The notes under the pieces are model-generated. The model did not search any database. It saw only the letters and a list, made by a program, of their open reading frames with translations, and was not told the origin of the DNA. Positions 5,124 to 63,986 of a stretch of DNA of 64,000 nucleotides are shown here, in pieces. The translations under genes and the position numbers were made by a program. How positions within the stretch are numbered: position 1 is the stretch's first letter; each line of letters starts with the position of its first letter. This DNA is from Candidatus Endonucleibacter sp. (ex Gigantidas childressi) (GTDB lineage: Bacteria > Pseudomonadota > Gammaproteobacteria > Pseudomonadales > Endozoicomonadaceae), in contig JASXSU010000003.1 of NCBI GenBank assembly GCA_030674875.1, positions 784,076 through 848,075 of the forward strand. Reading direction: 5' to 3'.

Positions 5124-5254
5124 TACCGGTTTCCACTGAAGGTGTATGTAGGGGTAGCGAGCGAAGCCCATGAGTCTGTGAGTAGTCGGTAATGGGTGGT
5201 AAGTGAGAGATGACAACAACTTCATATCTTCAATGCGAGCTGGTAGGTATGGTA
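5124..5254 (+). repeat. TA-element copy (asd-fimV gap)
   Basis: About 131 bp beginning TACCGG and ending GGTA, flanked on both sides by TA. It has the interior typical of the family (GCGAAGCCCATGAGTC, then TGAGTAGTCGG). It is non-coding and lies in the 552-base gap 4918-5469, which contains no gene. Confidence 0.75.
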
Positions 5255-5469
5255 TAAGGTTGTTCAGGTATCAGTTTGATGAGGGAATGTCTTATCAGCT
5301 GTCAATATAATGAATTCTGCTGTTAATTTACCGTGTTGTGGTGGTAAAAATAGAGTTTTCTCTGTAATTGGCGATGATAGAGTAAGTGTGAGCTGAAATC
5401 GCAACGCAGGGGTACGCGTGTGAGCAGCAAAAATAAAAATAGATTTTTGACGTTGGACAGGGATGCGCA

Positions 5470-8400
5470 ATGAGACTCTTTAAGCTCTTTATGGTGCTGA
5501 TATCAGTATGGGCCTTTGTCGGTTCTGGATATGTCAGTGCTCTTGGTCTGGGGGAAATCAGGCTTAAGTCAAAGCTGAATCAGCCACTTAATGCAGAGAT
5601 AGGGTTAACTCAAATTAAAGGTTTGAGAGGTGCTGATATCTTTTCCAACCTTGCTAGTCAGGCTGATTTTGAGATGGTTGGTGTTCAGCGTTTCCACGCT
5701 TTAACTGGCTTGCGGTTTGAAGTTTCGATAAGCGCGGATGCTTCCGGTGTTATTAAGGTGACCAGTAAAGATCCGGTTCAAGAACCTTTTCTTAACTTTC
5801 TGGTGGAGGTAAAGTGGCCTGGTGGTCGGTTGTTGCGAGAATATACTTTACTTCTGGACCCCCCAACTTTCGCTAATCATCTAGCAAATTCTTTTAATGC
5901 ACCTAGTAGTCGGCCTGATAGTAGTGTAATTGTGGATGAGTTGACAATCTCTGCAGTGATTGATGCATATTCTGTTGATGAGCCTAGTAGTTGGCCTGAT
6001 CGTAGTATATTTATGGATGGGTCAATAAACTCTGCAGTAATTGATGCATCTGCCCCTCAGTATCCCGATGCGGCAGAAGTGCTAAAGAAATTGGATGATA
6101 CGCATTATCAGGTAAAAAATAATGATTCGTTGTGGCAAATTGCTGAGGACATAAAGCCGGACAAGAGCGTGACTGTTGAGCAGGTTATGATAGCGATCTT
6201 GCGTCTGAACCCTAATGCGTTTATTGAACATAATATTAATCGGTTGAAAGAAGGGGTTGTTTTAATCACTCCTGATGCTCTAGCGGCAAAGGCATTATCT
6301 CATGAGCAGGCTGTTTGGCAAGTATCTATACAAGACAGGGCATGGAAGCAGGAAAGGAGTCTTCCTGAGTTTGACGCAAAGCGTAGAGATCATGTAGATG
6401 CTAATGAAAAGCTGTCAAAGCCAGCTTCTAGAGGTCGGCTAAGTATTGTTGCGCAGGAGCTTCCTAAGGAGAAAGCGAAAAAGGATATGGCTAATGCTGG
6501 CGGGGATAAGGTAATTCAGGACGAATTACTGACTTCACGAGAGAGTATGGATAATCTATCCCGTGAAAATGCCGAGCTTAAAAGTCTTTTGAGTGATTTA
6601 GACGAACAAGTCAAGCAGCTAACAAAGTTGGTAATGCTTAAGGATGACCAGATGGCAGCGATGCAAGTATCTGGGTCAGAAGGCACCACTTCCATGACTA
6701 AAAGTGTCATTGAAAATTTTGGTGGAAACAATGATTTAGTAGTACGGGAAAATGAAAAAGGTATTACCCAGGCAGAGGTAGTTGAACCTGGGAGTCAGAG
6801 AGAGTTAGAGGTAAAAAATGATTTGACGATGACTGAGCCTGAATCTGCATTTACATCTGTATCTGCACCTGCACCTGCACCTCTTGCACCTCTTGCACCT
6901 CTTGCACCTCCTGTACCTCTTGCACCTCTTGCACCTCTTGCACCTCTTGCACCTCCTGTACCTCTTGCACCTCTTGCACCTCTTGCACCTCTTGCACCTC
7001 TTGCACCTCCTGTACCTTTTGCACCTCTTGCACCTGAATTTGAATCTACACCTGAATCTACACCTGAATCTACATCTGAATCTATACCTGAATCTATACC
7101 TGAATCTATAGTTGAATCTACACCTGAATCTACACCTGAATCTACACCTGAATCTACACCTGAATCTACACCTGAATCTACACCTGAATCTACACCTGAA
7201 TCTACACCTGAATCTATACCTGAATCTATAGTTGAATCTACACCTGAATCTACACCTGAATCTACACCTGAATCTACATCTGCATTTGAATCTGCATTTG
7301 AATCAAGTTTTTTTGACAGTATGTTATTTTTATTTATTATGGGGCTGGTTCCTGTAGCCGGTGCTGTAGGATTTATTTATTATCGGCGACGAAAAAGTGA
7401 AGAGTTAGATGATGAGGACTTAGAAGATGAATTTGATCTGGAGGAAGACTTAGAGAGTGCTGGTGAGATTGCCGAGATTGATTCTGAGCTTTCAATTGAT
7501 GAAGGTATTGCTCTTGATACTAAAGATAATTTGCTAGGTGACCCTCTGAGTGATGCGGATGTACATATTGCGTACGGTCGCTTTGATGCAGCGATAGAGC
7601 TATTGAATGCTGCGATAGGTGAATATCCTGATCGTACTGATTTAAGAGTTAAAGTACTGGAGGTGTATTCTGAAAAAGGTGATGCTGATAATTTCAAGAT
7701 TGCATTTACCCAACTTGAAGGCACGGGTAATCTTGATGCCCTGAAGTCGGCTTCAGTATTGAAGGCTCGTTTTCCTGATGATACTTTTGCTACCAACCCA
7801 TCAAACAATAAAACAACCGATGATAGCGTAGATAATAATTTAAATGATTTGAGTCTTGATCTTGATGACCTAGACGATGATTTTGATGTCGGTGATATTG
7901 GCGTTTTAGATAGTCATGCGGAGCCATCTGATATTGGCCTAGAGCCTGAAGCTGATGAATTATCGCAGTCAGTGCAAGTGGAGCCACCTCAAGGTGATCT
8001 TTCGGAAGGGGTTGATTTTGACATAGGTAATGATGTTGATGAGGATGTTGCTCCTGTGGATGCATTGTCATCTACCAGTTCTGATGATAATCATTCTCTT
8101 GAGTTTGAAGGTAGTAGCTTGAATAAGTCAGTTTCCTCTGAATCTATTGCTCCAAAGGAAGCTGCCGGATTGGAGTTTCCGGATCTTGATGTCGATAGTT
8201 TTGATTTTGGTGAAGATGATTCGGGAGACTCGGCTGCAAGTAGCTCTATAGATCAATTTGACGTTGATGAATTGGAAGTTGAGCCGTTGGTTGAACCTGT
8301 GGCCTCGGGTGATTCAGAGGGGATTGAGTTTGACAATGATTTGGAGATGGGTGACGTTGACGATGATTTAGGCTTGTTGCCGGAAGAGGATGAAGGTTCT

Positions 8401-8535
8401 ACGAAACTTGATCTTGCTCGTGCATATATGGATATGGGGGATATGGTGGGAGCTTCTGATATTCTTGACGAGATTATGGAAAGTGGTAGCCAAGAGCAGC
8501 AAGCTGAAGCGAAGGAGCTATTTACCTTGCTTTAA
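5470..8535 (+). CDS. fimV: FimV-like peptidoglycan-binding polar hub protein
   Basis: FimV organises the cell pole and supports type IV pilus assembly and cAMP signalling in Pseudomonas-type bacteria; it sits between asd and truA as in those genomes. Order in the 1021 residues: signal peptide (1-25), FimV N-terminal domain starting LGLGEIRLKSKLNQPL, a LysM-like segment around 213-260 (QVKNNDSLWQIAEDI), a coiled coil near 355-395, a simple-repeat linker (about 470-610), a single membrane helix (about 616-637) followed by YYRRRK, TPR-like repeats (about 690-760), a very acidic cytoplasmic stretch, and the FimV C-terminal domain (KLDLARAYMDMGDMVGASDI, 978-997). The repeat linker is unusually long and degenerate. 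A stretch around residues 142-198 also contains an internal duplication. Confidence 0.93.
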   Translation: MRLFKLFMVLISVWAFVGSGYVSALGLGEIRLKSKLNQPLNAEIGLTQIKGLRGADIFSNLASQADFEMVGVQRFHALTGLRFEVSISADASGVIKVTSKDPVQEPFLNFLVEVKWPGGRLLREYTLLLDPPTFANHLANSFNAPSSRPDSSVIVDELTISAVIDAYSVDEPSSWPDRSIFMDGSINSAVIDASAPQYPDAAEVLKKLDDTHYQVKNNDSLWQIAEDIKPDKSVTVEQVMIAILRLNPNAFIEHNINRLKEGVVLITPDALAAKALSHEQAVWQVSIQDRAWKQERSLPEFDAKRRDHVDANEKLSKPASRGRLSIVAQELPKEKAKKDMANAGGDKVIQDELLTSRESMDNLSRENAELKSLLSDLDEQVKQLTKLVMLKDDQMAAMQVSGSEGTTSMTKSVIENFGGNNDLVVRENEKGITQAEVVEPGSQRELEVKNDLTMTEPESAFTSVSAPAPAPLAPLAPLAPPVPLAPLAPLAPLAPPVPLAPLAPLAPLAPLAPPVPFAPLAPEFESTPESTPESTSESIPESIPESIVESTPESTPESTPESTPESTPESTPESTPESTPESIPESIVESTPESTPESTPESTSAFESAFESSFFDSMLFLFIMGLVPVAGAVGFIYYRRRKSEELDDEDLEDEFDLEEDLESAGEIAEIDSELSIDEGIALDTKDNLLGDPLSDADVHIAYGRFDAAIELLNAAIGEYPDRTDLRVKVLEVYSEKGDADNFKIAFTQLEGTGNLDALKSASVLKARFPDDTFATNPSNNKTTDDSVDNNLNDLSLDLDDLDDDFDVGDIGVLDSHAEPSDIGLEPEADELSQSVQVEPPQGDLSEGVDFDIGNDVDEDVAPVDALSSTSSDDNHSLEFEGSSLNKSVSSESIAPKEAAGLEFPDLDVDSFDFGEDDSGDSAASSSIDQFDVDELEVEPLVEPVASGDSEGIEFDNDLEMGDVDDDLGLLPEEDEGSTKLDLARAYMDMGDMVGASDILDEIMESGSQEQQAEAKELFTLL
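6872..7295 (+). repeat. In-frame simple repeats inside fimV
   Basis: Two adjacent tandem arrays. First, a 9-bp unit (CTTGCACCT, variant CCTGTACCT) encoding Leu-Ala-Pro / Val-Pro runs to about 7035. Then a 12-bp unit (CCTGAATCTACA and variants) encoding Pro-Glu-Ser-Thr runs to about 7290. Both units are multiples of three, so slippage changes linker length without breaking the frame. The arrays create long artefactual open frames on both strands. Confidence 0.95.
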
Positions 8536-8962
8536 ATTTTCGTTTTTAAATGGCCGTCAAGGCAAAATACAACTAGAAAGTGTGGTAATAAAATACAGTT
8601 AGAGAAATTGTATAGGAACTTTATTATAATTGAGTTCCTTTCCAGTAATTAATGGTATCAATTTACTGCATACCTATTTTCCTTGAAGGTATGGGGCTAT
8701 TGTCTACTCTCTAGCCCCCAGATCGCTATTATCTCTTGATTATAACCATTCTTCTTGAGGGTTGGTATTGAAGCTTGCATTTTGAATGTCCTTTGGTATA
8801 TTTGTTGGGAATCCTAGCCGTCCTTTTCTTCTTCTGTTATAATTCGTGAAAAAACTAGTTACGCTTAACATTCCGTTAATTAGGCTCTACTTGAAGGTTG
8901 TGAGCGGGGTCAAAAAATTACGGGTACATTCTTTAGTTTTAATCTTGTTGATTTTATAATCC
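8536..8962. other. fimV-truA gap with TA-element fragments
   Basis: 427 bases with no recognisable gene. Near 8671 a fragment resembling the left end of the dispersed element (TACCTATTTTCCTTGAAGG) appears, and a second weaker one lies near 8740-8772. In related genomes truA follows fimV closely, so the gap looks stretched by decayed repeats. Confidence 0.5.
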
Positions 8963-9772: not shown

Positions 9773-9848
9773 TCTATATGTAGTAGGATGCAAACGAGTG
9801 AAATCTAATTACTTGTTAGTACTGCCGGTGAGAGTATTCAATAAGTTC

Positions 9849-9989
9849 ATACCTTCAATGGAAGCTGGTATATACCCATTACCCTTGAAGGTGGGGGGCG
9901 GCTCTCGATCACCCCGCTCACCTACTATTCGTAAGGTAACTGGGCTTCGCTCGTTTGTCGCCTACCCCCGCCGTGAATGGAAACTGGTA
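9849..9989 (-). repeat. TA-element copy plus an end fragment (truA-trpF gap)
   Basis: Positions 9873-9989 form a full reverse-oriented element (TACCCATTACCCTTGAAGG ... TGGTA) flanked by TA. Just before it, 9849-9870 reads ACCTTCAATGGAAGCTGGTA, the end of a second, truncated copy. The 286-base gap between truA and trpF is mostly made of these. Confidence 0.8.
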
Positions 9990-10058
9990 TATAGCGGCAA
10001 TTATGCGAGAATATTGCTAGCACCCTGTTTGTAAAATCACTACTGTGGGATTAATAAA

Positions 10059-11916: not shown

Positions 11917-12732
11917 ATGAGGATTAGGAGCTGTTTTAAAAAGCTTGAAACTGAACAGCGAAAGGCTCTGATTCCTTATATTACAGCGGGGGATCCTGAG
12001 CCCGGAGTAACTGTTCAAATCATGCATAAGTTGGTTGAGAATGGTGGTGATATTATTGAAGTGGGTTTTCCTTTTTCAGATCCCGTTGCAGATGGTCCAG
12101 TAATCGCTAGAGCCCACGAGCGAGCGATCTCTCACGGTGTTACGTTGAATGATGTTCTGTCAATGATAGGGCGTTTTAGGGAAAGAAACTCTGTTACTCC
12201 TGTTGTTTTGATGGGATATTTGAATCCCATTGAAAGTATGGGTTATGAGCAGTTTGCACAAAGAGCCTGTGATGTTGGTGTAGATGGAGTGCTAGTGGTT
12301 GATCTACCACTAGAAGCTCCGGGAAATTTGTCAGGGATATTGGAAAAGCGTGGTCTTAATGTTATTAATCTTATTGCGCCTACTACATCCGATGAGCGTA
12401 TTCGTAAAATTTGTAATGTTGCCAGTGGGTATCTTTATTATGTTTCTCTTAAAGGTGTCACCGGCTCTGCAATTTTGGATATTGCAGAAGCGGAGAGGCG
12501 AGTAACACATATTAAGAAATTTACTACGCTTCCTATAGGCGTTGGTTTTGGTATTCGTGATGGAGGCTCTGCAGCGGCAATAAGTAAGGTTGCAGATGGT
12601 GTTATTGTCGGATCTGTTTTGGTTTCAGCTCTGAAAAAAGAATTTGAGGTGAGCCATAATCGTATGTTGGAAGCAGTGGGAGAAATTTTGGCACAGATGC
12701 GGTCTGCAATGGACACCTCTCACTCTATTTGA
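11917..12732 (+). CDS. trpA: Tryptophan synthase alpha chain
   Basis: Cleaves indole-3-glycerol phosphate to indole, which is channelled to TrpB. The 271 residues show LIPYITAGDPEP, the catalytic Glu in IIEVGFPFSDPVADGP and Asp in VVDLPLE, and the C-terminal phosphate site VGFGIRD. A strong GGAAGGAG sits upstream of ATG 11917. It is the last trp gene here; accD follows after 139 bases, as in Pseudomonas relatives. Confidence 0.98.
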   Translation: MRIRSCFKKLETEQRKALIPYITAGDPEPGVTVQIMHKLVENGGDIIEVGFPFSDPVADGPVIARAHERAISHGVTLNDVLSMIGRFRERNSVTPVVLMGYLNPIESMGYEQFAQRACDVGVDGVLVVDLPLEAPGNLSGILEKRGLNVINLIAPTTSDERIRKICNVASGYLYYVSLKGVTGSAILDIAEAERRVTHIKKFTTLPIGVGFGIRDGGSAAAISKVADGVIVGSVLVSALKKEFEVSHNRMLEAVGEILAQMRSAMDTSHSI

Positions 12733-12871
12733 AAAGATGGTAAGGATGTTGGCAGTGCTTGCTTACCTTAATGATGAGGTTTTGCGAGATCATTGGAGTA
12801 TTTCCTTTGTAATCTGCTTGCATTTCCAATGACTTTGGGTATAGCGGTACCCTTGATAACGGGCAAAGCGG

Positions 12872-15794: not shown

Positions 15795-15817
15795 TTAAAG
15801 TGTTAATACGACGTATA

Positions 15818-15943
15818 TAATCATTCATCTTGAAGGAGTAGGGTTGTTGATTGCTCTAACACACCTCAATACTTTGCTACTCGCAGGCTAATGAATCTTT
15901 GCTCATTTGCCACGTCTGCTCATGCCTTCAATGGTGATTGGTA
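15818..15943 (-). repeat. Degenerate TA-element copy
   Basis: Reverse-oriented, weakly conserved copy between the SPOR gene and the phosphatase: starts TAATCATTCATCTTGAAGG, contains CTACTCGCAGGCTAATG, and ends CCTTCAATGGTGATTGGTA. It reaches to within about 20 bases of the downstream ATG. Confidence 0.55.
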
Positions 15944-16498: not shown

Positions 16499-16548
16499 AT
16501 GTTTCGATTAAGCTGGATGTTGCCTGTATGTAATGATTTATTGGTATA

Positions 16549-16669
16549 TACTCGTTATCATTAGAGGAGTGGGTAGGCGACAAACTAACTAATTCCCATA
16601 GCTTACGAGTAGTAGGTGTTTAGTGAGTGAGAGCGGTCAACAACCTCACATCTTTAAGGATGATGGGTA
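16549..16669 (+). repeat. TA-element copy
   Basis: 121 bp from TACTCG to GGGTA, with TA on both sides. It has the complete interior (GTAGGCGACAAAC ... TACGAGTAGTAGG ... GAGAGCGG). It lies in the 1.3-kb gene-free stretch after kdsC. Confidence 0.85.
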
Positions 16670-16807
16670 TAAAGCAAAAAATAATGCTAGGTCATCTGAG
16701 CGAGGAGATTTTCGTTTACTTTAGTTATGCCAAGCTGCTCATATCTAAACGGGCAGTTACACAGTTTGTTTTACAGCCTCGCCGATAAAGTGCCTTTTCC
16801 GCCTATA

Positions 16808-16954
16808 TACCCGTAGCCTTTAAAGTTGCTACTTTATTGCCAGAGCTACTTCATCACAGTAGCTTCCTACTTTTAAGCTTCTGCGGCCTCTCTACTCTCT
16901 CTTCTCGCAGACATGTGGCTTCTCTTCTTCGGCCTTCAATGGTAACAGGGTGTA
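16808..16954 (-). repeat. Degenerate TA-element inside the IS3 remnant
   Basis: Starts TATATACCCGTAGCCTTTAAA and ends in the region GCCTTCAATGGTAACAGGG. The interior is diverged and somewhat longer than the norm. TA lies immediately before it. Confidence 0.55.
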
Positions 16955-17290: not shown

Positions 17291-17736
17291 AGTGGATTAG
17301 TTGCAATACTTAGTGATTTAGCAGATTTAGCAGATTTAGCAGATTTAGCTGTCTAATATCCTTGATCTAGAGTCAAGGTCCTCGCATCGACTTTAAGTTC
17401 TTTTGGGTGTTGTTTGTAGCTATGCTTCTGTCCTATCATAACACTCTAATAATGTTTTTGATTAAAGTGACCGGTTCTTTTGACTAGAACATACTTTACT
17501 GGTAGTAATATGATAGGTGTTATATTTTTTGGCTGAGATACTTGAGTTTCTTTCGAGTATGGATTTTTTCTAGCAGCATTAGAGTGGTTCTTGCGGTAGG
17601 ATCAATCTTTATTTTGGGTGCTTTTAAGTGGTGCAATTAGTTTCTCTAGTGCCTTTTGAACTAGGGGTAATAGGTAGTTACTAAAAATAAGTGCCGTTAT
17701 GTGGTAGGCGCCAGCTAAGAATGATTCTAAAATAAA
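17291..17736. other. Gene-free stretch upstream of the first secreted paralog
   Basis: AT-rich, no recognisable gene. It contains a short tandem run of the 9-bp unit TTAGCAGAT at about 17318-17349. The left boundary of the tandem duplication falls near 17722. Confidence 0.5.
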
Positions 17737-17765
17737 TTGGACTTCACAAAATATTTTTATATAAT
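17737..17765 (+). promoter_or_regulatory. Predicted sigma-70 promoter of the first paralog
   Basis: TTGGAC (17737-17742), 17-base spacer, TATAAT (17760-17765), 39 bases before the ATG. The duplicate at 21540-21568 keeps the spacing and the perfect -10 but has TAGGAC at -35, a weaker match. Prediction from sequence only. Confidence 0.5.
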
Positions 17766-17804
17766 GCGTCCCACCAGTGATCTAAGCAATAAAGCGGTAG
17801 TCTT

Positions 17805-19004
17805 ATGTTGAATATTAAATTAGTTAAAGTGGTTGTTGCGTTCGTAATGATTTTTTTTACTATAGTAACTGTCGGTTCTGTCATGGCTGGGGGCTTAGAT
17901 GATTGTTGCCAGTGTGGCCTAATAATAAATGATGCAAATGAAGAAAGGCATATTTATATTTGTCAGTATAGTAAAGATTATGTAGAGCCTGACTTATCCG
18001 ACGATGCAGTGCAGCTGTCTGGTTTTTTAGATTATGTATCAGAATGCTCTACTCAGATTAAAAACACGGAGCGTGCAAATCAGGTTCTTAAATTGCATAA
18101 CAGTATAAAAGAGAAGGTGGAAAACTCTAAAGAATTTCCTAGAGAAAACATTGTAAATGAAATGTTTAAGGCGCGGGAGGTCGTCATGGAAGGTATGGAC
18201 TCGTTAATGCTATGTCCATTCACGACGAAAGAAATTTCCGAAATAGTACAGTATATAGATTGTGTAGTAGGCATTTTTTGCGACAAAGATGAAGGTTGCA
18301 GAAGACGTCCGTGGTTGCTTTGTAAAGATGGCGGGTTTCAAGTTGCTTTTAGCTCTGCGCTTTCTTGGTGGTATTGGCATTATGGAGAAAGATCTCCGAC
18401 AACAAAAGATGATCGTAAAATCTTCCATTCTATAATTATATATATTTTGCTAACTCAGTATATGGGCAGACGCGATGAGTTTATGGATAAATGTTGCGGT
18501 GAGAATGTTGATATAGCAAGCCTGCATAGTGACTATATGCTTTGTGTTATGGCTGTAATACGAATCAAGCAACATAGTTTTACGAAAGCATATGTTTCTC
18601 GCGATTATAAAGCAAATGTGTATAACCCAATCCGACTAGATAGCTACTCAGAGAAAGGCGAGATTTATGAGATTGGGCGACACCTGGTCAATGACTCTTG
18701 CTGTCCACTGTTGGCGTTGAGTAAATCTTGTGCGCTGACTTTGCAATTTGTCGTTATAAAAGGCATGAAGATGTTCGAAATAAAAAGTATAGTAATTCCT
18801 GGGTTTTATGAATTAACTAGCACTCAACGGAGTTTCGAAGATCACTTGAAAGCTCTATTCAATAAAACACAGTCATGCTCACCTCAACGCCCAAGCTTGG
18901 GGAGTGTTGTTAAAAATGGTGTGCAGGCAACAATTGACTATAGTTATAATTTATTACGCAGTTTTTTACTATGGCATATCGATACCGATACCGATCTCGG
19001 TTGA
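17805..19004 (+). CDS. Secreted Cys-rich protein of unknown function, paralog A
   Basis: 399 residues. Signal peptide 1-28 (hydrophobic core VVVAFVMIFFTIV, likely cleavage after VMA), then DDCCQCG and many further cysteines (DCVVGIFCDKDEGC, DKCCGEN, DSCCPLLALSKSC), suggesting disulfides after export. I recognise no family. It is about 82% identical to the protein at 21607-22809. The last residues and stop lie inside a dispersed TA-element (from 18989), so the element may have supplied the C-terminus. No clear Shine-Dalgarno precedes ATG 17805. A secreted host- or surface-directed role is possible but unproven. Confidence 0.8.
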   Translation: MLNIKLVKVVVAFVMIFFTIVTVGSVMAGGLDDCCQCGLIINDANEERHIYICQYSKDYVEPDLSDDAVQLSGFLDYVSECSTQIKNTERANQVLKLHNSIKEKVENSKEFPRENIVNEMFKAREVVMEGMDSLMLCPFTTKEISEIVQYIDCVVGIFCDKDEGCRRRPWLLCKDGGFQVAFSSALSWWYWHYGERSPTTKDDRKIFHSIIIYILLTQYMGRRDEFMDKCCGENVDIASLHSDYMLCVMAVIRIKQHSFTKAYVSRDYKANVYNPIRLDSYSEKGEIYEIGRHLVNDSCCPLLALSKSCALTLQFVVIKGMKMFEIKSIVIPGFYELTSTQRSFEDHLKALFNKTQSCSPQRPSLGSVVKNGVQATIDYSYNLLRSFLLWHIDTDTDLG

Positions 19005-19112
19005 ATTTGTGCGTAGGTGACAAACGAGCACAGTATCATGAACCTGCGAGTAGTAAGTGACTGGGGTGAGTGAGCGCAGCCAAAAATCCTATGCCTTCAG
19101 AGGGCATAGGTA
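18989..19112 (+). repeat. TA-element overlapping the 3' end of paralog A
   Basis: 124 bp, TACCGATCTCGGTTGAA to ATAGGTA. The first 16 bases are the final codons of the gene; TGA belongs to the element's conserved TTGAA motif. Interior GCGTAGGTGACAAACGAGC and GAGTGAGCGCAGCC match the family. Its twin is at 22794-22917. Confidence 0.8.
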
Positions 19113-19160
19113 TATGTGTTAAAAACAAATGATTTTTTATTTACTTCAGAATGATTCTAA

Positions 19161-19963
19161 GAGACCTCAGCATAACTCAACAAAGACGATTATATTCTGG
19201 TAAAATATCGGCATGCAAAAATCCTTCACAACACAGCCCAAACTCTTCGTTTAAGCCAGCGACCTAAATCATCCAATTCTTCGTAGTCTGGATGATACAA
19301 AAGCGCTGCTGAAATGGTAAGAGATTGAGAAGTTATTACCCTCAATCTACGCCTCTAACACCGGTCGCCCGAGCTATCCTCTGCTGACCTTGTTTCGAGC
19401 CTTATTGCTTGGAACATGGTATCGCTTATCCGATGTACAGTTGACTCAGTGCTTGTATATACTAGTCTCCTTTCAAGCTGCTACGTTGTTGGCTGCGTTC
19501 GCTCACCCCTATCACCTACTCGTAGGCTCATGGGGCTTAGCTTACTTGCTGCCTAGTAGCAATTTGAAATGCTTTGGGTATAGAGATCTTCTGTTTTGTA
19601 AATTTTGTCACCTTGAACTTGGTAGAGCAGTTCCTGAAGCTCCACCTTGGGACGCTTTCGAAAACGACTTGTCGCACATCGTCTGTGGGATCAATTATTG
19701 GCAGAGATTAATCGTAAGTTTGAAGCCAAAAACATCATAATGAGCGAAGGTCGCATTAATATCATTGATGCTACACCGATAGAGGCAGTGCGATCAGGTT
19801 CGGGCCACGACAAAAGCGGAAAACCGACAAAAGATCCTGAAGCGGGCTGGCACGTTAAAAATGACAGTCGTGGTAACAAAAAAAGCACCTATGGTTTTTC
19901 CGTTCATACCTGTGTCAATGAAGATGACTTTATTCATAGGCAAAGCGTAATGCCTGACAATGT
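19161..19963 (+). mobile_element. IS5-family remnant in unit 1
   Basis: Left inverted end GAGACCTCAGCATAAC, then a broken transposase (FRALLLGTWYRLSDVQLTQC, later RINIIDATPIEAVRSG and KSTYGFSVHT), an IS5-type DDE protein. It is frameshifted, interrupted by a TA-element at 19460-19580, and lost its right end in the 180-bp deletion near 19963. Non-functional. It belongs to a different IS from the 20190-21521 element but has similar GAGACCT ends. Confidence 0.85.
19460..19580 (-). repeat. TA-element inserted in the IS5 remnant (unit 1)
   Basis: 121 bp, TACTAG to GGGTA, flanked by TA (19458-19459 and 19581-19582). Deleting the element and one TA rejoins TTGTATAGAGATCTT, which reads LYRDLLF, the sequence expected of the transposase. 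This proves insertion at a TA. Confidence 0.92.
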
Positions 19964-20180
19964 TCCTGATTCATGGCATATCCGACGAATACAGGCCAGA
20001 TGATTAGGTGTAAATGTTCTATTTTTAATTTCACAAAAACTCACCCTTCTAGGTGAAATACTGAGAGGTGTGTATTTTATCTTAAAGGCCTTGCGCTGTT
20101 TTGGGTTAAGGACATTATTTCTGGTTTTGAGTCGCGAATTCAGGTCATGGATTCAGAGCTGAAGCCATTGATTCAGTAAA
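19963..20180 (+). repeat. 210-bp repeat, copy 1
   Basis: Starts TTCCTGATTCATGGCATA and ends near CGAATTCAGGTCATGG. Recurs at about 23942-24165 and, more diverged, at 35738-35960. It contains CTCACC...AGGTGAAA arms. Each copy adjoins transposon debris. Non-coding, origin unknown. Confidence 0.8.
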
Positions 20181-20318
20181 AATACAATGAGAGACCTTTG
20201 CATGATAACGCCATTTCACGCCCATTATTAATGAGTTACATTTTTTGACGATAAAAAGGTCAAAAATGACGTCATAGGGGCTAATTCTTTACGAATTGCG
20301 TCTTATTACCCCACATTT

Positions 20319-21434
20319 TCATTTTTTAGGCACGGCTTGCCTGCTGTATCGATAACCCTCGCTTGATGTTGCGCGTAACACACATCATCTCAAATCGCGT
20401 ACGGTTCCGATCAAGACCCAGATAACGTGCTTTCGCCATCTAGTAGTGTTGCTTCAAAACACCAAAGACGCGCTCAACGGTACATCGCACTCCCGAATGT
20501 AGCTGATTAAATTTCTTGGATTTTTCGTCTAGTGGCGTGTTGCGATAAGCTCGCTTTATCACTCTGTTATCAATGGACCGCTCAGCCAGCCACTGGTCAT
20601 GCGACTGGCTGCGGTAAGCACTATCCGCATAAGCCGCAGATTCGTCGCAGCTTAATAACTCGGTAAAACAATTGGAGTCGTGAACATTGCCTGCCGTGTA
20701 ATCCGTTGACTTGATGAAGCCATCTTCATCAACATTGATGTGCGCTTTGTAACCGTAGGTGCTTTTACGTTTCCCATCGGAACCAACTTTTACATTCCAA
20801 TCCGCTTCAGGGTCTTGAGTCGAATCACCATGCTTGTTTTTATTGGGGCGGCATTGCTTGGCCTCAATCACGCTGGCATCGACAATACTGACTTCTCCCG
20901 ATTTGATATATACCCAAAGCATTTCAAATTGCTACTAGGCAGCAAGTAAGCGAAGCCCGCGAGCCTACGAGTAGTAGGTGATCGGGGTGAGCGAACGCAG
21001 CCAACAACGTAGCAACTTGAAAGGCGACGGGTATAAAGCCATTGCTCACTAAGCTGGGCATTGATCTCGCTGAGCAATCCGTCCATTAAACATAGCGTGT
21101 CCAGTTTCTGTCTAAACCGCCAAAACGTCGAGTGATCCGGCACAGACTCAGAAATATCCAGCCCGGTAAAACGGCGAAATAACAAATCGCGCGCCAGCTG
21201 TTTTTCCAGTACCAGATCACTGAGCTTGTACCAGCTTTGCAGCAGAAGCGCTTTAAGCATCATTAGTGGAGGACAAGCCTTATCGCCACGCGCTTTGGAA
21301 TGAATTTGTGACAGCCGCTGCTCTAACCGTGACCAATCAATAAGTTCGTGCACGGCATCCAGCTCTTTGACTGCATCGTGCTCGATCAGCATGGCGTCGG
21401 CCAAGCTACGTTGTGTAAGATTTTTCCAGGCCAT
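20319..21434 (-). pseudogene. IS5-family transposase, disrupted
   Basis: N-terminal half (21434 to about 21040) reads MAWKNLTQRSLADAMLIEHD, then LIDWSRLEQRL and SVPDHSTFWRFRQKL, classic IS5 family. The C-terminal half (about 20905-20319) has VSIVDASVIEAKQ, KSTYGYKAHINVDEDGF and TVERVFGVLKQHY. A TA-element (20911-21033) splits the gene. In addition a GAG to TAG change after KQHY (compared with the copy at 48.8 kb) truncates the last 39 residues. It cannot be active as it stands. Confidence 0.9.
20911..21033 (+). repeat. TA-element inserted in the IS5 transposase
   Basis: 123 bp, TACCCAAAGC to CGGGTA, flanked by TA (20909-20910 and 21034-21035). Removing it with one TA restores EQWLYIKSGE in frame on the minus strand. 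Subfamily with AAATTGCTAC / GTAGCAACTT inner arms. Confidence 0.93.
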
Positions 21435-21539
21435 TGTCGTTTTAGTGGTTTCCGCGTTTTGCTTTCAATCTATTATTCCAGATTATCAACATGGTTTCCC
21501 TGTGTTTCGTGCAAAGGTCTCAATGATTCTAAAATAAAA

Positions 21540-21568
21540 TAGGACTTTACAAGATATTTTTATATAAT
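21540..21568 (+). promoter_or_regulatory. Predicted promoter of the second paralog
   Basis: TAGGAC (21540-21545), 17-base spacer, TATAAT (21563-21568). The IS5 element ends 18 bases upstream, so anything needed further upstream has been replaced by IS sequence. Confidence 0.45.
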
Positions 21569-21606
21569 GCGTCCCACTAGTGATCTAAGCAATAAAGGGT
21601 AGTCTT

Positions 21607-22809: not shown

Positions 22810-22917
22810 ATTTGTGCGTAGGTGACAAACGAGCACAGTATCATGAACCTGCGAGTGGTAAGTGACTGGGGTGAGTGAGCGCAGCCAAAAATCCTATGCC
22901 TTCAGAGGGCATAGGTA
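22794..22917 (+). repeat. TA-element overlapping the 3' end of paralog B
   Basis: Duplicate of 18989-19112, with only a few differences, mainly near its left end. It supplies the stop codon of the gene in the same way. Confidence 0.8.
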
Positions 22918-22965
22918 TATGTGTTAAAAACAAATGATTTTTTATTTACTTCAGAATGATTCTAA

Positions 22966-23919: not shown

Positions 23920-23941
23920 TAGTAAGGGTTTTCTTGATAGT

Positions 23942-24165: not shown

Positions 24166-24239
24166 CAATGAAAACTATTTTTTGTTATCTGTACCAACTA
24201 TCCTGTTACTATTTTTCCATAAAAGGGCCATATACTCAA

Positions 24240-26441: not shown

Positions 26442-26471
26442 ATATTATCACCATATACGCTTAACATAATA

Positions 26472-46900: not shown

Positions 46901-47934
46901 TTTTCTTTCTTTACATCATGTTTGGTTACTTTCTGATAACCTTTTGATTTAGATTTACTCACCATACTGTTAATATGGGTGTGCTGAATGCTTGAGTATA
47001 AGTTCTTTGAGGATAATTTCTGTTTTGGTTTAAGATTATGTTGATATTCTCCTTGAAGTGACTTCACTCTTGGTGGCACATGGTGCTGAAATCGTTGGTA
47101 ATAATTTAGAAATAGTTGCTCACTACCATGCACAGGAAAAGAGTTATTACAGGGCTCTATATGGTCATTATTAGGAAGTAAATAGAATCCAGGGCCAGCG
47201 TTTTTTTCTATGAACTGATTAGTTGTATAAGCTGCTGAGTTTAAATTCCCGCTACATTTGGTCGCTTTCAATCTGGCTATATCGCTTAAAGGGTATGCTA
47301 TAGGGTTTGGTTTACTTATTCTAGGCGGCGGATAGCCATTAAAGGTTAAATGCTGTTCATTTAACATTAAATCACTTTGTAAGGATTCTGCATGCTTTTT
47401 AGCTGAGGGCAATAAGTTGTGAAGTTCTGGAGTCCCTGATGATAACGGTCGTGATAACTTATTTAAATGATGTGGTAACTCGTTAGTAGCGTTCCTAGGT
47501 AAAGCCCCAAAGTTTTGAAAAAATGATATGGGTTGAGATCCAGTAGGTCCTTGGTAAAGTAGGTCAAAACCAGATGGAACAGAACATGGTTTCTGATATT
47601 TCAGCTGCTGTTGTAATACTGGCAAATGCTGATAAAATGCCATGACTGCTTGCATATAGTTGGTCAAGGCTACCGTCTTCTGCAACTGATAATCAAGTAA
47701 TGCTCGTTGCTGGAGAAGATTTGCCACACTCTGACTATGGTGAGTATATAACAGAGGTTGCATAATCTGAATATTACGTTTATATAAATCGTTATAGGAC
47801 AGTGGTTTTTCTACTGCCATTCTTGTCGTATAATTTACTGCAGGCATCCTTTGAACGCCATCGGGCAATATAGTATTGTCAATGGGGGGGCAGAATAAAA
47901 AGCCTGGGTATAGACCCATCCTGATATTATTCAT
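43951..47934 (-). CDS. Giant coiled-coil protein with possible papain-like C-terminus
   Basis: 1327 residues, unknown. Three parts: (1) residues 1-330, Gln/Tyr/Pro-rich, no signal peptide; (2) about 331-700, highly charged helical repeats, including seven copies of KLDKANAEKEKA and seven of KLDEVNAAKTKA (12 residues each), giving a long coiled coil; (3) about 700-1327, a globular region. In part 3, YCGGFAML (Cys about 1036), NHAVVIE (His about 1209) and LHTWGV (about 1229) are spaced like the Cys-His-Asx/Trp of papain- or transglutaminase-like folds. This is pattern resemblance only. Size, repeats and location among mobile debris suggest a host-interaction protein; a type-specific secretion signal cannot be seen. 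Confidence 0.7.
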   Translation of the reverse strand: MNNIRMGLYPGFLFCPPIDNTILPDGVQRMPAVNYTTRMAVEKPLSYNDLYKRNIQIMQPLLYTHHSQSVANLLQQRALLDYQLQKTVALTNYMQAVMAFYQHLPVLQQQLKYQKPCSVPSGFDLLYQGPTGSQPISFFQNFGALPRNATNELPHHLNKLSRPLSSGTPELHNLLPSAKKHAESLQSDLMLNEQHLTFNGYPPPRISKPNPIAYPLSDIARLKATKCSGNLNSAAYTTNQFIEKNAGPGFYLLPNNDHIEPCNNSFPVHGSEQLFLNYYQRFQHHVPPRVKSLQGEYQHNLKPKQKLSSKNLYSSIQHTHINSMVSKSKSKGYQKVTKHDVKKEKATKNLPKKEIIGNNILKKEEVETEKLNKFKDCKEKEKFKKVYNGEEKAKLDEKNAKKDKVKLEKINAEKEKVKLEKINAEKEKVKFEKINAEKEKANLDKANLDKANAEKEKVKLEKINAEKEKAKLDKANAEKEKAKLDKANAEKEKAKLDKANAEKEKAKLDKANAEKEKAKLDKANAEKEKAKLDKANAEKEKAKLDKANAEKEKAKLDEVNAAKTQAKLDEVNAAKTKAKLDEVNAAKTKAKLDEVNAAKTKAKLDEVNAAKTQAKLDEVNAAKTKAKLDEVNAAKTKVDNEKKVIESKKADKVTYDNTETEKKNFDNIETQPAKETKKKNKEEEIVYGVATKEYLNEENLLPWDESDKEAQINNLIKAEEKKQLDIKNSRLKKTNITTEMLNGERCYIISDTKYILASADNICIGQKNGPVAAVTFPDDKNEMLILLKNETESIPVIANRNGDYIQIFKGEAIRGFSSLYYSYSGSGNYSTSDKRTIPVFIDGKHFSIDKTRGEQYIEIGNKKFIACIDGRVREIIIGEVTSGFFDHAYYIKNNNTHRMPIEQHEALERSIDRIRRVATPAEARDVLTKFFNSVSGKTLTQNNHYAIDKKKTLDFIVCYKKAIELEIKEEKEDKEIKAEQDKKKNERLKAISEIKDFIENINNNDPKLNEKCRCAIQLSGRVRERSLVTQKAIPYCGGFAMLQEAWGINPCKMVHIALDLLEKGETTTDTMVVGCVKKLSTPDYFKWRDYDEAYADSLLISIHYNLKKASSLAQEDAMNATYLGVPVKKCNYPDSKSDSFKKQDMQTRFLQELTLVSRGKGSICATAHGAINIFFLHELQKGFNRKNVSGPVNIEAAFKEFKSEEQINHAVVIEKFHVTGVGDNKFIECKLHTWGVMHHLKMRVSTFFDNFDPSSFFIANMDASQKFEFFSDIDKVVMRKNDNTATIGVLKLLDGTEHHLKKGDQISIENIVYKFNGGADWDTYPLS
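46030..46740 (-). repeat. 36-bp coding repeats within the coiled-coil gene
   Basis: Tandem 36-bp units in two blocks (about 46030-46270 and 46272-46535), with a third, more variable block to 46740. Units within a block are nearly identical, indicating recent expansion by slippage or unequal exchange. They generate long meaningless frames on the plus strand. Confidence 0.95.
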
Positions 47935-48509: not shown

Positions 48510-49108
48510 GAAAGCTGGTTCGGATGGGAAACGTAAAAGTACCTACGGTTACAAAGCGCACATCAATGTTGATGAAGATGGCTTCATCAAGTCAACGGAT
48601 TACACTGCAGGCAATGTTCACGACTCCAATTGTTTTACCGAGTTATTAGGCGGCGACGAATCTGGGCTTATGCGGATAATGCTTACCGCAGCCAGTCGCA
48701 TGACCAGTGGCTGGCTGAGCGGTCCATTGATAACAGAGTGATAAAGCGAGCTTATCGCAACACGCCGCTAGACGAAAAATCCAAGAAATTTAATCGGCTA
48801 CATTCGGGAGTGCGATGTACCGTTGAGCGCGTCTTTGGTGTTTTGAAGCAACACTACGAGATGGCGAAAGCACGTTATCTGGGTCTTGATCGGAACCGTA
48901 CGCGATTTGAGATGATGTGTGTTGCGCACAACATCAAGCGAGGGTTATCGATACAGCGGCAAGCTGTGCCTAAAAAATGAAAATGTGGGGTAATAAGACG
49001 CAATTCGTAAAGAATTCGCCCCTATGGCGTCATTTTTGACCTTTTTATCGTAAAAAAATGTAAGCCATTAATAACTGGCGTCAAATGGCGTTATCATGCA
49101 AAGGTCTC
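48510..49108 (+). mobile_element. 3' fragment of the 20190-type IS5 element
   Basis: Transposase codons GSDGKRKSTYGYKAHINVDE to IQRQAVPKK, then the right inverted end TGCAAAGGTCTC at 49108. A single-base deletion (TCTGGGCTT instead of TCTGCGGCTT, about 48660) breaks the frame into 48445-48741 and 48630-48980. Here the codon after KQHY is GAG, whereas the copy at 20.4 kb has TAG. The left half is missing. Confidence 0.9.
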
Positions 49109-49289
49109 ACATAGATAAATAATATAAAAATGTCCCGTGACTAGGTAGATCAATCATAAACTATTTGTACTGAATAGTTACTGTCAATATCCGGCCCTGC
49201 GTTATTATGCTTGCGTACCAACATAGAGACGTGACTCAATAGATGTGACCAATCCAGTTAAAAAGAATACTATAAGATGGAGCTATGTG

Positions 49290-49632: not shown

Positions 49633-49750
49633 AAACATAATATCAGCTCAGCTAGGGAGTCATAAGTTCAAACTATACTCGTTAGGGTGTGTGTCCATAT
49701 TCCAATTGATGGTGATAGTCGGAGATAAGCGACGAAGGCTATTGACTCTA

Positions 49751-49878
49751 TACCTGTTACTAGTAAAGATGTGGGTAGGCAGCAAGCAAGCGAAATCCTC
49801 TGGGCCTATGAGTAGTGGTTGGTTGGTTGGAGGTGATGAAAATAGTTAGCAGCTACGCACTTTCAAAGAGGATGGGTG
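49751..49878 (+). repeat. TA-element copy, diverged
   Basis: TACCTGTTACTAGTAAAG, GTGGGTAGGCAGCAAGC, GAGTAGTGG and a weak end GAGGATGGGTG. TA precedes it. Confidence 0.65.
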
Positions 49879-50295
49879 TGAGTGACTGTGGTGAGGGACT
49901 GTGGTGAGGGAATGCTGACAACAAAATAGCAATTTCAAAGGCACGGGGTTTATGAGTGGAAGGTGATTGTAGTGTGGGAAATCTGCTCACAGCCTGAGGC
50001 CTAGAAGTGAAATTGGAATAATGGATGTTGTTGAATTTTCGGTTTTGCTTTAGATGATTTTATCGTTTTTTAACTGTTTTGCTGTTTTTGAGGCCTATTA
50101 CCGTAGATGTAAGAAGCAACGGATGGGTTTTTATGGTGACAAGTGCTTAATCTTTTGGTAGATTGATCTCTGACCATAGAGATCGTAGGATGATTTTAAT
50201 AAACTAGAAAACAATGAGTTGACGCGGTGTGTTGTTAAGAGTATTATGCTGATTCTTTCTTATTTGTATTTATGACGAAGGGTTAAATAGTATAT

Positions 50296-50372
50296 CGGGG
50301 TATAGCGCAGTCTGGTAGCGCGCCTGCTTTGGGAGCAGGATGTCGGGAGTTCGAATCTCTCTACCCCGACCA
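50296..50372 (+). tRNA. tRNA-Pro (TGG)
   Basis: Full cloverleaf: acceptor CGGGGTA / TACCCCG, anticodon stem CCTGC/GCAGG around TTTGGGA, T-arm GGGAGTTCGAATCTC, encoded CCA. First of four tRNAs upstream of tig, an arrangement shared with Pseudomonas. Confidence 0.97.
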
Positions 50373-50383
50373 GTTTGTGTTGA

Positions 50384-50460
50384 GCGCCCGTAGCTCAGCT
50401 GGATAGAGCAACGGCCTTCTAAGCCGTAGGTCGCAGGTTCGAATCCTGCCGGGCGCGCCA
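50384..50460 (+). tRNA. tRNA-Arg (TCT)
   Basis: Acceptor GCGCCCG / CGGGCGC, anticodon loop CTTCTAA between ACGGC and GCCGT, T-arm GCAGGTTCGAATCCTGC, encoded CCA. Eleven bases after tRNA-Pro, hence one transcript. Confidence 0.97.
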
Positions 50461-50597
50461 TTAGCGGCGTTTGATTTTTTAATGGTGATGAAGAGAGTTT
50501 TTAGTAGTTTTGAATGTATTCGTTCCTATAGGTTGGATATGAATTTGTAAAAACAATAAATTTTGATGTTGCGTAGTAGAGATGGGCGAGTGTAAGT

Positions 50598-50674
50598 GGT
50601 GGGCGTAGCTCAGTTGGTAGAGCTCCGGATTGTGATTCCGGCGGTCGAGGGTTCAAGCCCCTTCGTCCACCCCA
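50598..50674 (+). tRNA. tRNA-His (GTG)
   Basis: Acceptor GTGGGCG / CGTCCAC with an extra 5' G (50598) facing discriminator C, the His identity pair; anticodon loop ATTGTGATT; T-arm GAGGGTTCAAGCCCC; encoded CCA. Confidence 0.96.
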
Positions 50675-50720
50675 ATTGCCCTTGGTATATTGCTTCTTTG
50701 TGTGAGTATTGGTTTGTTAG

Positions 50721-50805
50721 GCGGGAGTGGTGGAATTGGTAGACACGCTGGATTTAGGTTCCAGTGCCGCAAGGTGTGAGAGTTCGAGTCTCTCCTTCCG
50801 CACCA
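50721..50805 (+). tRNA. tRNA-Leu (TAG)
   Basis: 85 bases with the long variable arm (TGCCGCAAGGTG) of class II tRNAs, anticodon loop TTTAGGT between CTGGA and TCCAG, acceptor GCGGGAG / CTTCCGC, encoded CCA. Confidence 0.97.
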
Positions 50806-50853: not shown

Positions 50854-50875
50854 GTATGGCATTTGCTGAGAGTTA

Positions 50876-50997
50876 TACCAGTCACCATTGAATATGTGGA
50901 TAGGTGAAAAGCGAACGAACTCTCATGAGTTTTAATGGTAGCAAGTGGTTGAGGTAAGAGCGAGCGGCAACTCCACGCCTTCAAGTGATTGCTTGTA
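50876..50997 (+). repeat. TA-element copy (tRNA-tig gap)
   Basis: TACCAGTCACCATTGAA to CCTTCAAGTGATTGCTTGTA. Occupies a third of the 408-base gap before tig; the remaining part shows no gene. Confidence 0.7.
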
Positions 50998-53471: not shown

Positions 53472-53630
53472 CTATGATTTTGTTTGTTGTATGCCTAAAA
53501 TCGTTGGATGTATGGGTGGCAATGTGTTAAGTCATTGAGAGTTGTAGTAGTAAGTGGTTGAGAAACTGCCGAAATGAATGCATTTTTAAGGTAGCGAGTC
53601 TTTTGGAGTAGTTAATGCTTCAATTGCACA

Positions 53631-53746
53631 CGTTACCATTGAGGATAGGTTGGCAATAGGCGAGCCAAGACCCATGATCCTATGAATAGCAAGTGATTGG
53701 TGAGTGAGGTGAGTTAACTGCCTCACACCTTTAATAGTGTTGGGTA
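53631..53746 (+). repeat. TA-element copy (clpP-clpX gap)
   Basis: CGTTACCATTGAGGATAGG to AATAGTGTTGGGTA followed by TA; interior AATAGGCGAGCC, CCTATGAATAGCAAG. It widens the clpP-clpX spacing. The rest of 53472-53856 has no gene. Confidence 0.7.
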
Positions 53747-53856
53747 TATTGGAGTTAAGGTGGTTTTAACTTTGCTAGATAACGCACTTGAAGAGGAGCA
53801 TCAATCCTTGCATTTTGATCGATGCGGGTGTTGTTTTTGATAACTAGGGTAATCGA

Positions 53857-58926: not shown

Positions 58927-59291
58927 TCTTTTCCCCTTCTTTGTAGGATGTTCTTCTTAGCTAAAATAGCTAAAATAGCTAAACAGATGTATCAACAATA
59001 AGAAAACGCCTCAACACCAGCGCCTAAACGGACCCGTATGCTATGCTGCTAGATTTTAACTGAAAATACAAGCAACAGTAACAGGCTTATCATTATTTTC
59101 GGTGCTCAACTAGTAAAGTCGTAGACGCACAATTCGTCCAAAGACGGAAATTATTTCTACTAGGCAGCGCCTAGCTATAAGAGTATTTCATTTCTAGCTC
59201 ATGTACTAGCAGTGCTTGACTCTAACTTTAAGCAACTTCTTCATAAGGCTCTAGAAGCTTTGCTACCTTCAGATTGAACAGGGTGGCATTA

Positions 59292-59396
59292 TATCAGTTT
59301 CAATTGAAGATATGGCGAAGCCTGTGATCTTGCAAGTAGTAGGTGTGTGGTTGCTGAGAGCAGTTAGCAACCACACACCTTTAATGGCAACGGGTA
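59292..59396 (+). repeat. TA-element copy (hupB-lon gap)
   Basis: TATCAGTTTCAATTGAAG to CAACGGGTA, TA on both sides; interior GGCGAAGCCTGTGATC, GTAGTAGG. Lies in the 749-base spacer 58927-59675, otherwise gene-free, inside what is normally one lon-hupB unit. Confidence 0.8.
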
Positions 59397-59625
59397 TATA
59401 TTCCAGCATTATTTTAAGGATTTACCATCACAACCTTAATAAAATCCATCAATCATCAATTATTACAAGCTAGTCTACACTACTTGCACCAAAAAATGGA
59501 TAATTATTAGCAGTTTTTACTTGTTTTGATCACGAAGAGTAGTCTTAATAATCATGCTAAGACTACGGTATGGTAAGCAAAGCTTTACTCTTGAGTGGGA
59601 GTAGGAGGGTTGGAAAGCTGGGGTT

Positions 59626-62461: not shown

Positions 62462-62582
62462 TATGCCGCTGCCATTGCGTAGTGGTAGGCGACAACCCGG
62501 CGAAGCTCCATGAGGCTAGTAACTTAGGTTATTAGAAAGGTGAGGGCAGTCAGTAGCCTCATATCGTCAAGGACAATAAGTA
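62462..62582 (+). repeat. TA-element copy (lon-rsmJ gap)
   Basis: 121 bp; interior GTAGGCGACAACCCGGCGAAG, end AGGACAATAAGTA, TA at both sides. In the 526-base gap 62091-62616, which holds no gene. Confidence 0.8.
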
Positions 62583-62616
62583 TATAGAAAGCGTAGTTAG
62601 AATGGTTTGCAGAATG

Positions 62617-63548: not shown

Positions 63549-63635
63549 AATAATTTTGTGTAAGTGGGCTGTGTAGATGCAATATAATTTAACGAGCAAT
63601 AAAGAGAAGCTTTTTCGTTCAAAGGTGGGCATATA

Positions 63636-63759
63636 TACTCGTTATCATTGAATGTGCGGGTAGCCGACAAGTAAGCTGGTTTTTAGTGTCTACGAATAGT
63701 CGGTGACTGGGGTGAGTCAGAGTGGTCAGCAGCTCCGCTCTTTCAAGGGAAAATGAGTA
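63636..63759 (+). repeat. TA-element copy
   Basis: 124 bp, TACTCGTTATCATTGAATG to GAAAATGAGTA, TA on both sides; interior GTAGCCGACAAGTAAGC, TACGAATAGTCGG. In the gene-free end of the window. Confidence 0.85.
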
Positions 63760-63863
63760 TAGTAAGAAGATATACAAAAGTCTTCTAATGCTGAGTACTG
63801 CGACCAACTTTTATTTGATAGTATGGCATGTTGAGACAAGTAATTTGAAATCCTTTAGGTATA

Positions 63864-63986
63864 TACCCAAAGGATTTGGAATTGTTAGGCGGTGGCAGCT
63901 GAGCGAGTCCGTATAAGCGTAGAGTGCTAAGCTACTGTAGTGAGCGAACGCTGACAACAAAGTGGCAGTTTTAAAGGCGACGGCTA
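63864..63986 (+). repeat. TA-element copy, AAGTTGCTAC-type subfamily
   Basis: TACCCAAAGGATTTGGAATTG to AAAGGCGACGGCTA; interior TGAGCGAACGCTGACAAC. The left flank is TA, the right flank is TT, so the right border has mutated. Confidence 0.75.

Follow-up and report, generated by a model that had tools for sequence, protein, structure and literature searches.

The 64,000 nucleotides of contig JASXSU010000003.1 analyzed here (positions 784,076 to 848,075 of assembly GCA_030674875.1, "the window") raise a simple question: what is the short repeat bordered by TA that appears again and again between its genes, and how did it get there? By sequence homology the repeats are copies of the enterobacterial repetitive intergenic consensus (ERIC), an element widely used for typing, in a genome outside its textbook hosts. 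We consider it very probable that ERIC is here a miniature inverted-repeat transposable element (MITE) that inserts at TA, occupies about 1,400 loci, has a CCC-type IS630 as its most likely mover in trans and is nested in insertion sequences. The kind of element is known; what is new is the host lineage, the density and the nesting.

Identity of the repeat family

An nhmmer profile, seeded with four copies of the window and iterated, detected 28 non-overlapping loci of one family (E<=1e-3), of which 21 span 110 or more of the 128 profile columns. The family of about twenty copies described in the first-pass annotation is therefore real; 12 of the 14 coordinates given there fall inside profile loci, and the other two, 29088 and 62462, sit 6 and 5 bases before one. 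It had estimated one copy per 3 kb; the high density holds and the actual figure is slightly higher, one locus per 2.3 kb. Copies are found in both orientations, their inverted ends are of the TATACCC type, and the better preserved ones have the TA borders and TACCC...GGGTA ends described before. The length, including the TA at both sides, is 128 nt in 54 of the 74 young copies (young meaning a score above 90). Only 5.7% of the bases of the family lie inside open reading frames (ORFs) of at least 120 amino acids, vs 66% when copies are placed at random (none of 5000 permutations was that low, using 38 of 45 ORFs after dropping 7 overlapping shadow ORFs), in agreement with the location in gaps proposed earlier. 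The additional statement that no copy encodes a protein is correct in the usual sense only, as the reverse strand of 59 of the 74 young copies is open across the whole element in one frame.

A profile made exclusively from window copies matched two E. coli ERICs over columns 1-128 with 57.1 and 55.7 bits (E values of 1.2e-15 and 3.2e-15), and had no match in 80 loci from other named genomes included in the same search, which covered 1.04 Mb altogether. The homology claim rests on this profile; the model R1, used for the wider searches below, contains two E. coli rows and its matches are not independent of E. coli ERIC. By blastn, 4,890 of 5,426 E. coli genomes gave a match at E<=0.01, the best place reaching 72.5% over 98% of the query. 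We thus assign the repeats to ERIC (IRU, RU-1, MITEEc1, MITEPlu5), an identity missed in the first-pass annotation, and not to a new family.

The copies from E. coli and from the window form similar long hairpins, with an outer stem, an inner stem and an apical hairpin. The folding z values were -6.3, -6.7, -4.2 and -1.3 (four foldings of three window copies) and -5.7 for the E. coli ERIC; one of the three window copies folded no better than 22 of 200 shuffles. Over an alignment of 21 rows, 80.2% of the cells pair, vs 73.1% in shuffles and 32-37% with the partners slid, and changes on both sides are found in 27 of the 42 hairpin pairs, the structure having been taken from one row of the alignment, which favours that structure. 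The RNAalifold consensus of the alignment, with 6 pairs only, was discarded for this test. No ERIC copy matched an Rfam family at gathering scores, which in the window are reached by four tRNAs only.

As the matches per genome were capped in the genome-wide searches (at 40 and 93), we projected the copy number to the whole genome from twenty evenly spaced 20-kb stretches (400 kb). They contained 152 loci, and 102 of these span 110 or more of the 128 columns; the same sample reversed (not complemented) gave 0 matches. The genome-wide search suggested in the first-pass annotation thus found further copies throughout, and the projection is about 1,400 loci for a genome of 3.68 Mb, with a 95% interval of roughly 1,070-1,730. 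The available text of PMC10969869 reports 711 ERIC copies in Photorhabdus luminescens.

Insertion at TA and nesting in insertion sequences

We have pooled 137 unique full-length copies with their flanks and clustered the flanks, so that each insertion is described by a pair of cluster numbers. Some flank pairs recur because ERIC sits within a multicopy insertion sequence. For 7 of the 19 pairs with both arms repeated, namely (2,0), (3,1), (10,4), (8,9), (18,19), (15,11) and (5,17), the same genome also has empty copies, with one TA in the place where the occupied ones have TA-[TACCC...GGGTA]-TA. A few of the empty copies bear base changes at the junction. In the IS630 site, for example, the empty version reads ...GGAC-TA-TACGG... 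and the occupied one ...GGAC-TA-ERIC-TA-TACGG.... These empty and occupied versions are insertion scars of unusual clarity and show that ERIC inserts here at TA and duplicates the TA, as expected from the non-autonomous mobile family targeting TA that had been proposed from the window.

No empty copy was present in the pool for the other 12 pairs. Among them, (6,7) has six copies, including the one at 20909-21035 of the window, (12,14) corresponds to an ERIC abutting an IS630 end, (23,24) is the window's own duplication, and (25,13) and (22,21) are likewise without an empty version. The remaining seven, (5,0), (5,11), (5,4), (16,11), (8,21), (15,9) and (1,16), with 9 copies, mix arms of other pairs, from which we infer that ERIC copies recombined with each other or that a deletion joined two of them; this sorting into sites and mixtures was made after seeing which pairs had empty copies. 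Two other arrangements were seen. In L191:68-447 three ERIC copies lie head to tail with shared junctions, and the reverse frame is open through the array. At flank clusters 12 and 13, the outer ends of IS630 copies are directly adjoined by a number of ERIC copies; it looks as though the TA bordering one element were a preferred target of the other.

The age of the copies makes a clear difference to their surroundings. Both flanks lie in repeats in 18 of 30 young full-length copies vs 4 of 47 old ones (sample plus window), and flanks are unique in the pool in 10 of 30 and 40 of 47, respectively; the 18/30 and 4/47 figures are rough, as duplicates between the sample and the selected loci were credited to one source and flanks were scored as repeated only when a second copy was present in the pool. 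Hence, a large part of the recent increase in copies took place nested in other insertion sequences, and the nested young copies are probably carried by them. The hosts are varied. Besides the IS630 (DDE_3), they include a DUF772 transposase gene at site (3,1), DDE_Tnp_1 elements at (6,7) and (15,11) and an rve element at (18,19). Sites (2,0), (5,17) and (8,9) are presumably IS30-like genes, partly judging by IS30 motifs; in the IS30-like pieces Pfam gave HTH_38 above the cut-off and HTH_32 and rve below theirs, and it gave nothing for three other such pieces. ERIC copies seem to provide shared homology between unrelated insertion sequences.

The repeated flanks of those 18 young copies are also what would be found if the recent burst had been mostly passive, i.e., if the insertion sequences carrying ERIC had multiplied and ERIC itself had hardly transposed in this genome. 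We regard this as unlikely, as at least seven starting insertion sites with their own empty copies would still be needed, and the young and old copies with unique flanks speak against it too.

The candidate IS630 transposase

The IS630 elements of the window genome have the ends TATACCCAAGTGAATTCAAGATGC and TATACCCAAGTGTATTGAAGATGC. When a matrix of ERIC ends was run over 860,530 masked positions, only 10 and 22 of them scored as high as these two ends, and beyond TATACCC the tail fractions were 0.0017 and 0.006.

The IS630 copies seen in the window genome are decayed. The same lineage is intact in another genome of the family, G070 (20 ERIC matches), with a frame of 346 codons in three copies; its four element copies are 98.8-99.7% identical and have the ends TATACCCAAGTGAATTCAAGATGCAGG and TATACCCGTGACCATTGAAGATGCTTG. 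An ERIC arm of G071, a genome of the same genus as G070, reads TATACCCGTTACCATTGAAGATG and matches the second of these ends in 22 of 23 positions by eye and in 23 of 27 as computed. The arms of one ERIC of G070 itself match in 21 and 20 of 27 positions, and an E. coli ERIC arm matches the first end in 22 of 27. Of the 274 ERIC arms of the window genome, 65 and 115 matched the two IS630 ends in at least 17 of 23 positions, vs 6 and 18 of 861,690 masked background positions. Once TATACC is given, the next 16 bases of the ERIC arms have a mean of 8.2 and 8.9 matches, vs 4.4 and 4.4 at other TATACC sites (192 arms and 254 sites, some of these sites perhaps being unrecognised pieces of ERIC or IS630, something that works against the contrast). 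The first-pass annotation had recommended looking for a longer element that shares the ends and encloses a transposase; IS630 elements with similar ends exist, decayed in the window genome and intact in G070. The supposition made there of a mover of the IS630/Tc1-mariner group gains a candidate of that kind, decayed here and intact in the same family, that would act on ERIC in trans judging by the likeness of the ends. These nearly identical intact copies, with ends that match ERIC, represent a concrete enzyme to test.

A connection of ERIC with IS630 is not in itself new, as it appears in the available text of PMC6267812; what is added here is how closely the ends match, and an intact partner from a second lineage. 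The consulted parts of the ERIC literature cited here report no tested mover. For ISY100, which belongs to the IS630 family, the use of TA as target and its duplication have been shown in vitro (PMC2170065, from the portion consulted).

According to the available evidence, the history of the family is very probably as follows. ERIC is a non-autonomous MITE of about 124 bp that inserts at TA and duplicates it, the part that the empty sites show directly, and extrapolation from the sample suggests an expansion to roughly 1,400 loci in this relative of Endozoicomonas. Judging by the shared TATACCC...TT(C/G)AAG(A/T)TG ends, a CCC-type IS630 transposase recognising them is the most likely mover in trans. 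Young copies entered several unrelated insertion sequences, would have multiplied along with them and would have recombined with one another; the copy patterns are seen directly, the order of these events being deduced. The old intergenic copies would be decaying relics.

Several observations weigh against this history. No transposition was observed. The best arms of the window genome match the IS630 ends in 19 and 20 of 23 positions, and a score of 20 is also attained by as many as 3 positions of the background; the best end match of all (22/23) joins two different genomes of one genus. Among the matches listed, the window genome has no uninterrupted IS630 frame free of ERIC, so a present mover is absent or has been lost there. 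In the genus that contains the named Endozoicomonas genomes (g7), several genomes rich in ERIC lack this IS630 at E<=1e-20, e.g., G013 with 68 ERIC matches; ERIC in these genomes may be a relic, or may be served by another IS630. G062, of the same genus, has at least 93 ERIC matches and none of the IS630 type studied at the same threshold. Over the family, ERIC is found in 5 of 7 IS630-positive genomes vs 10 of 30 negative ones, a difference that is not significant (p=0.095). Finally, ERIC identity was 95.6% within sites vs 95.1% between sites (93 of 2000 permutations), and among the six sites represented by at least three copies just one had a diagnostic base, and a single one. The co-amplification of one insertion is thus not separated from repeated insertion or gene conversion.

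The ERIC-rich Endozoicomonas genomes without this IS630, together with the presence of ERIC in several families of insertion sequences, are what would be expected if another transposase family targeting TA moved ERIC and the IS630 ends were similar only through their use of TA. This possibility appears even less likely than the passive burst, as the likeness of the ends extends well past TATACC, the in vitro duplication of TA belongs to an IS630-family element (ISY100, in the same partial source), and a likeness between MITEPlu5 and IS630 had been noted independently (PMC6267812, in the available text).

There is one more peculiarity in the relationship between ERIC and the IS630 favoured here as its mover. 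In the IS630 gene of the window genome, ERIC is inserted between the Y and the S of LPPYSPNLNPIE, a motif that we take to carry the third catalytic residue of IS630 and that is uninterrupted in G070. Several IS630 copies of the window genome are split by ERIC within this motif. A copy of 128 nt represents a net insert of 126 bp, i.e., 42 codons, and the interrupted gene can keep an open reading frame. Actually, the two longest frames among the 14 IS630 copies examined, of 394 and 401 codons, are both interrupted by ERIC, the second with a small further loss. We have looked at eight insertion sites, namely (6,7) and the seven flank pairs for which empty copies exist, chosen after seeing the empty-copy result. 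By eye, the reading frame of the transposase coincides with the open ERIC frame at four, (2,0), (3,1), (10,4) and (8,9), and does not at (6,7), (18,19), (15,11) and (5,17). The probability of at least 4 of 8 at a chance of 1/6 is p=0.03, for sites that were found because they are multicopy. The frame is open in 22 of 26 young copies at the in-frame sites vs 34 of 48 others, which is not significant (p=0.26), and selection for the open ERIC frame is only a suggestion.

A reverse frame of 42 amino acids and a shifted ERIC frame have been described fused to genes, with no such repeat inside conserved domains, in the parts of PMC2759123 available. Here the frame resembling the RU-1 peptide (YTR...) has stops and the open frame differs from the 42-amino-acid RU-1 frame; RU-1f, the shifted frame described in that partial source, may be its counterpart. 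Also unlike what is described in it, ERIC is found here inside conserved domains, in a frame unlike the RU-1 peptide, and most of the carrier genes are decayed.

Relatives of the IS630 transposase were found on 250 plasmid records, with the best place below 60% identity in 248, and 172 of them are conjugative. They include plasmids of Salmonella (145), Vibrio (27) and Klebsiella (22). All six such relatives that were examined carry TATACC, three of them at both ends and the other three at a single end. A tentative and rather doubtful extension of the IS630 reading would make ERIC the MITE of one IS630 lineage travelling on conjugative plasmids among Enterobacterales, Vibrio and the relatives of Endozoicomonas. 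The open reverse frame and the net insert of 42 codons would then let ERIC sit in frame in genes for transposases, even in the catalytic motif of the enzyme that moves it, and be carried and copied by insertion sequences that it should have killed.

Host, distribution and relatives of the family

The ERIC copies themselves had suggested an enterobacterial host, and this was ruled out, TrpF and the gene order pointing to Endozoicomonas. The best TrpF matches are from this genus (57-60% for the eight best, one of which, L068, is labelled Salinisphaera sp. G21_0), and the order truA-trpF-trpB-trpA-accD is kept in all eight of these loci. As genomes reached through named loci have the same match coordinates as genomes of the family (G038 as G013, G040 as G020), the family of the window genome (f1) contains Endozoicomonas; within it the window genome belongs to a different genus (g1) from the named Endozoicomonas genomes. 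Model R1 gave matches in 15 of 37 genomes of the family, including the window genome, in a patchy way: the same-genus genomes G001 and G002 have 0 and 5. Among named genomes, with at most 150 candidates scored per genome, there were 37 matches in Endozoicomonas elysicola, 45 in E. ascidiicola, 27 in E. cretensis, 68 in isolate 4-162, 2 in YOMI1 and 1 in Salinisphaera sp. G21_0, with 0 in ONNA2 and SESOKO1 and 0 in 15 other chosen named gammaproteobacteria (from 15 of the 72 named loci outside L061-L068). By BLAST, none of 13 genomes of the same order and other families matched. In a draw over the whole class at least 4 of 368 other genomes did (9 candidates scored per genome). One genome of another family of the class, G393, has at least 9 ERIC-like matches (loci L210 and L215), with ends less like IS630 than those of the window. 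A literature search in one paper collection retrieved no title or abstract start on ERIC in the Endozoicomonas group among the matches listed.

The idea that an ancient structured RNA or regulatory element has been conserved at set positions, and resembles a transposon in looks only, could draw on the strong hairpin with compensatory changes and on the reported effect of Yersinia ERIC on mRNA stability (PMC2229807 and PMC10969869, in the text available), but is largely refuted and hardly credible in view of the empty and occupied sites within one genome, the failure to match Rfam, the patchy occurrence in the family and the lack of copies in the truA-accD stretch of all eight named relatives that keep the gene order, where the first-pass annotation would have looked for copies at orthologous positions. 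ERIC was also absent near trpF in six genomes, at least two of which are identical with named ones.

The copies in the window follow one another from end to end (strand and nhmmer columns in brackets). A diverged copy at 2368-2487 (+, 9-128, E=6e-9) is followed by one in the asd-fimV gap at 5122-5245 (+, 1-126, E=4e-23), a fragment in the fimV-truA gap at 8670-8727 (-, 70-127), a copy in the truA-trpF gap at 9871-9991 (-, 1-128, E=4e-26) with a fragment abutting it at 9782-9872 (+, 26-128), and a diverged copy in the trpA-accD gap at 12723-12843 (-, 1-120). The fimV-like ORF itself has 9-bp and 12-bp repeats at 6829-7340, the 9-bp units reading Leu-Ala-Pro. Two more copies, at 15816-15943 (-, 3-128) and 16547-16671 (+, 1-128), and a fragment at 16806-16894 (-, 40-128) precede a tandem segmental duplication at 17729-24171, with an offset of about 3.8-4.0 kb and pieces 91-97% identical, that includes two ORFs of about 400 amino acids, the first without a Pfam match. 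The duplication contains twin copies at 18988-19114 and 22793-22919 (both +, 2-128) and twin young copies of site (3,1) at 19458-19582 (-), inside the DUF772 transposase gene by profile, flanks and Pfam, and at 23263-23390 (-), by profile and flanks. The young copy at 20909-21035 (+; profile, flanks and Pfam), site (6,7), lies inside an insertion sequence whose DDE_Tnp_1 transposase ORF, at 20440-20922 (-, PF01609, E=2e-18), it interrupts. An inverted pair, 20187-20790 and 48511-49112 (94-98% identical), overlaps this insertion sequence with its first member.

Further on there is a fragment at 25752-25820 (-, 1-69), copies at 26470-26587 (-, 1-128) and 29094-29214 (+, 5-128), a copy with a small internal deletion at 39166-39285 (+, 1-128) and a fragment at 39509-39576 (-, 62-128). 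An array of 36-bp repeats occupies 45879-46877, within an ORF of 1,327 amino acids on the minus strand (43951-47934). The copy at 49749-49877 (+, 1-125) is followed by two clustered fragments, 49888-49949 (+, 64-125) and 49948-50019 (+, 56-127), and between these and the copy at 50874-50987 (+, 1-117) lie the four tRNA genes, clustered at 50296-50802 (Rfam). The last copies are at 53628-53748 (+, 4-128), 59290-59398 (+, 1-128, with an internal deletion), 62467-62584 (+, 7-128), 63634-63761 (+, 1-128) and 63862-63987 (+, 1-127).

The closest known systems are the ERIC, IRU, RU-1 and MITEEc1 elements of E. coli, Salmonella and Yersinia, which, as described in the available parts of PMC2229807 and PMC2759123, are like the window family in the homology of the unit, length, TATACCC ends, TA duplication, hairpin and mostly intergenic location; the difference is that here the host lies outside Enterobacterales and Vibrio and many young copies are within insertion sequences. 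RUP of Streptococcus pneumoniae, compared by its description in the same partial PMC2229807, is also a MITE for which movement by an IS630 (IS630-Spn1) is assumed, and is often found inside insertion sequences, but stops are reported for it in all six frames, whereas most young ERICs have here one open frame. MITEPlu5 of Photorhabdus luminescens, likened from its published description, is like the window family a MITE related to ERIC; the available text of PMC6267812 gives 552 complete copies, of which 47 are indels when two genomes are compared, and a likeness to the CCC-type IS630 elements ISPlu3, ISPlu8 and ISPlu19. What distinguishes the present case from MITEPlu5 is the match of 22/23 to the end of an intact IS630, the empty sites in the same genome and the Endozoicomonas-like host.

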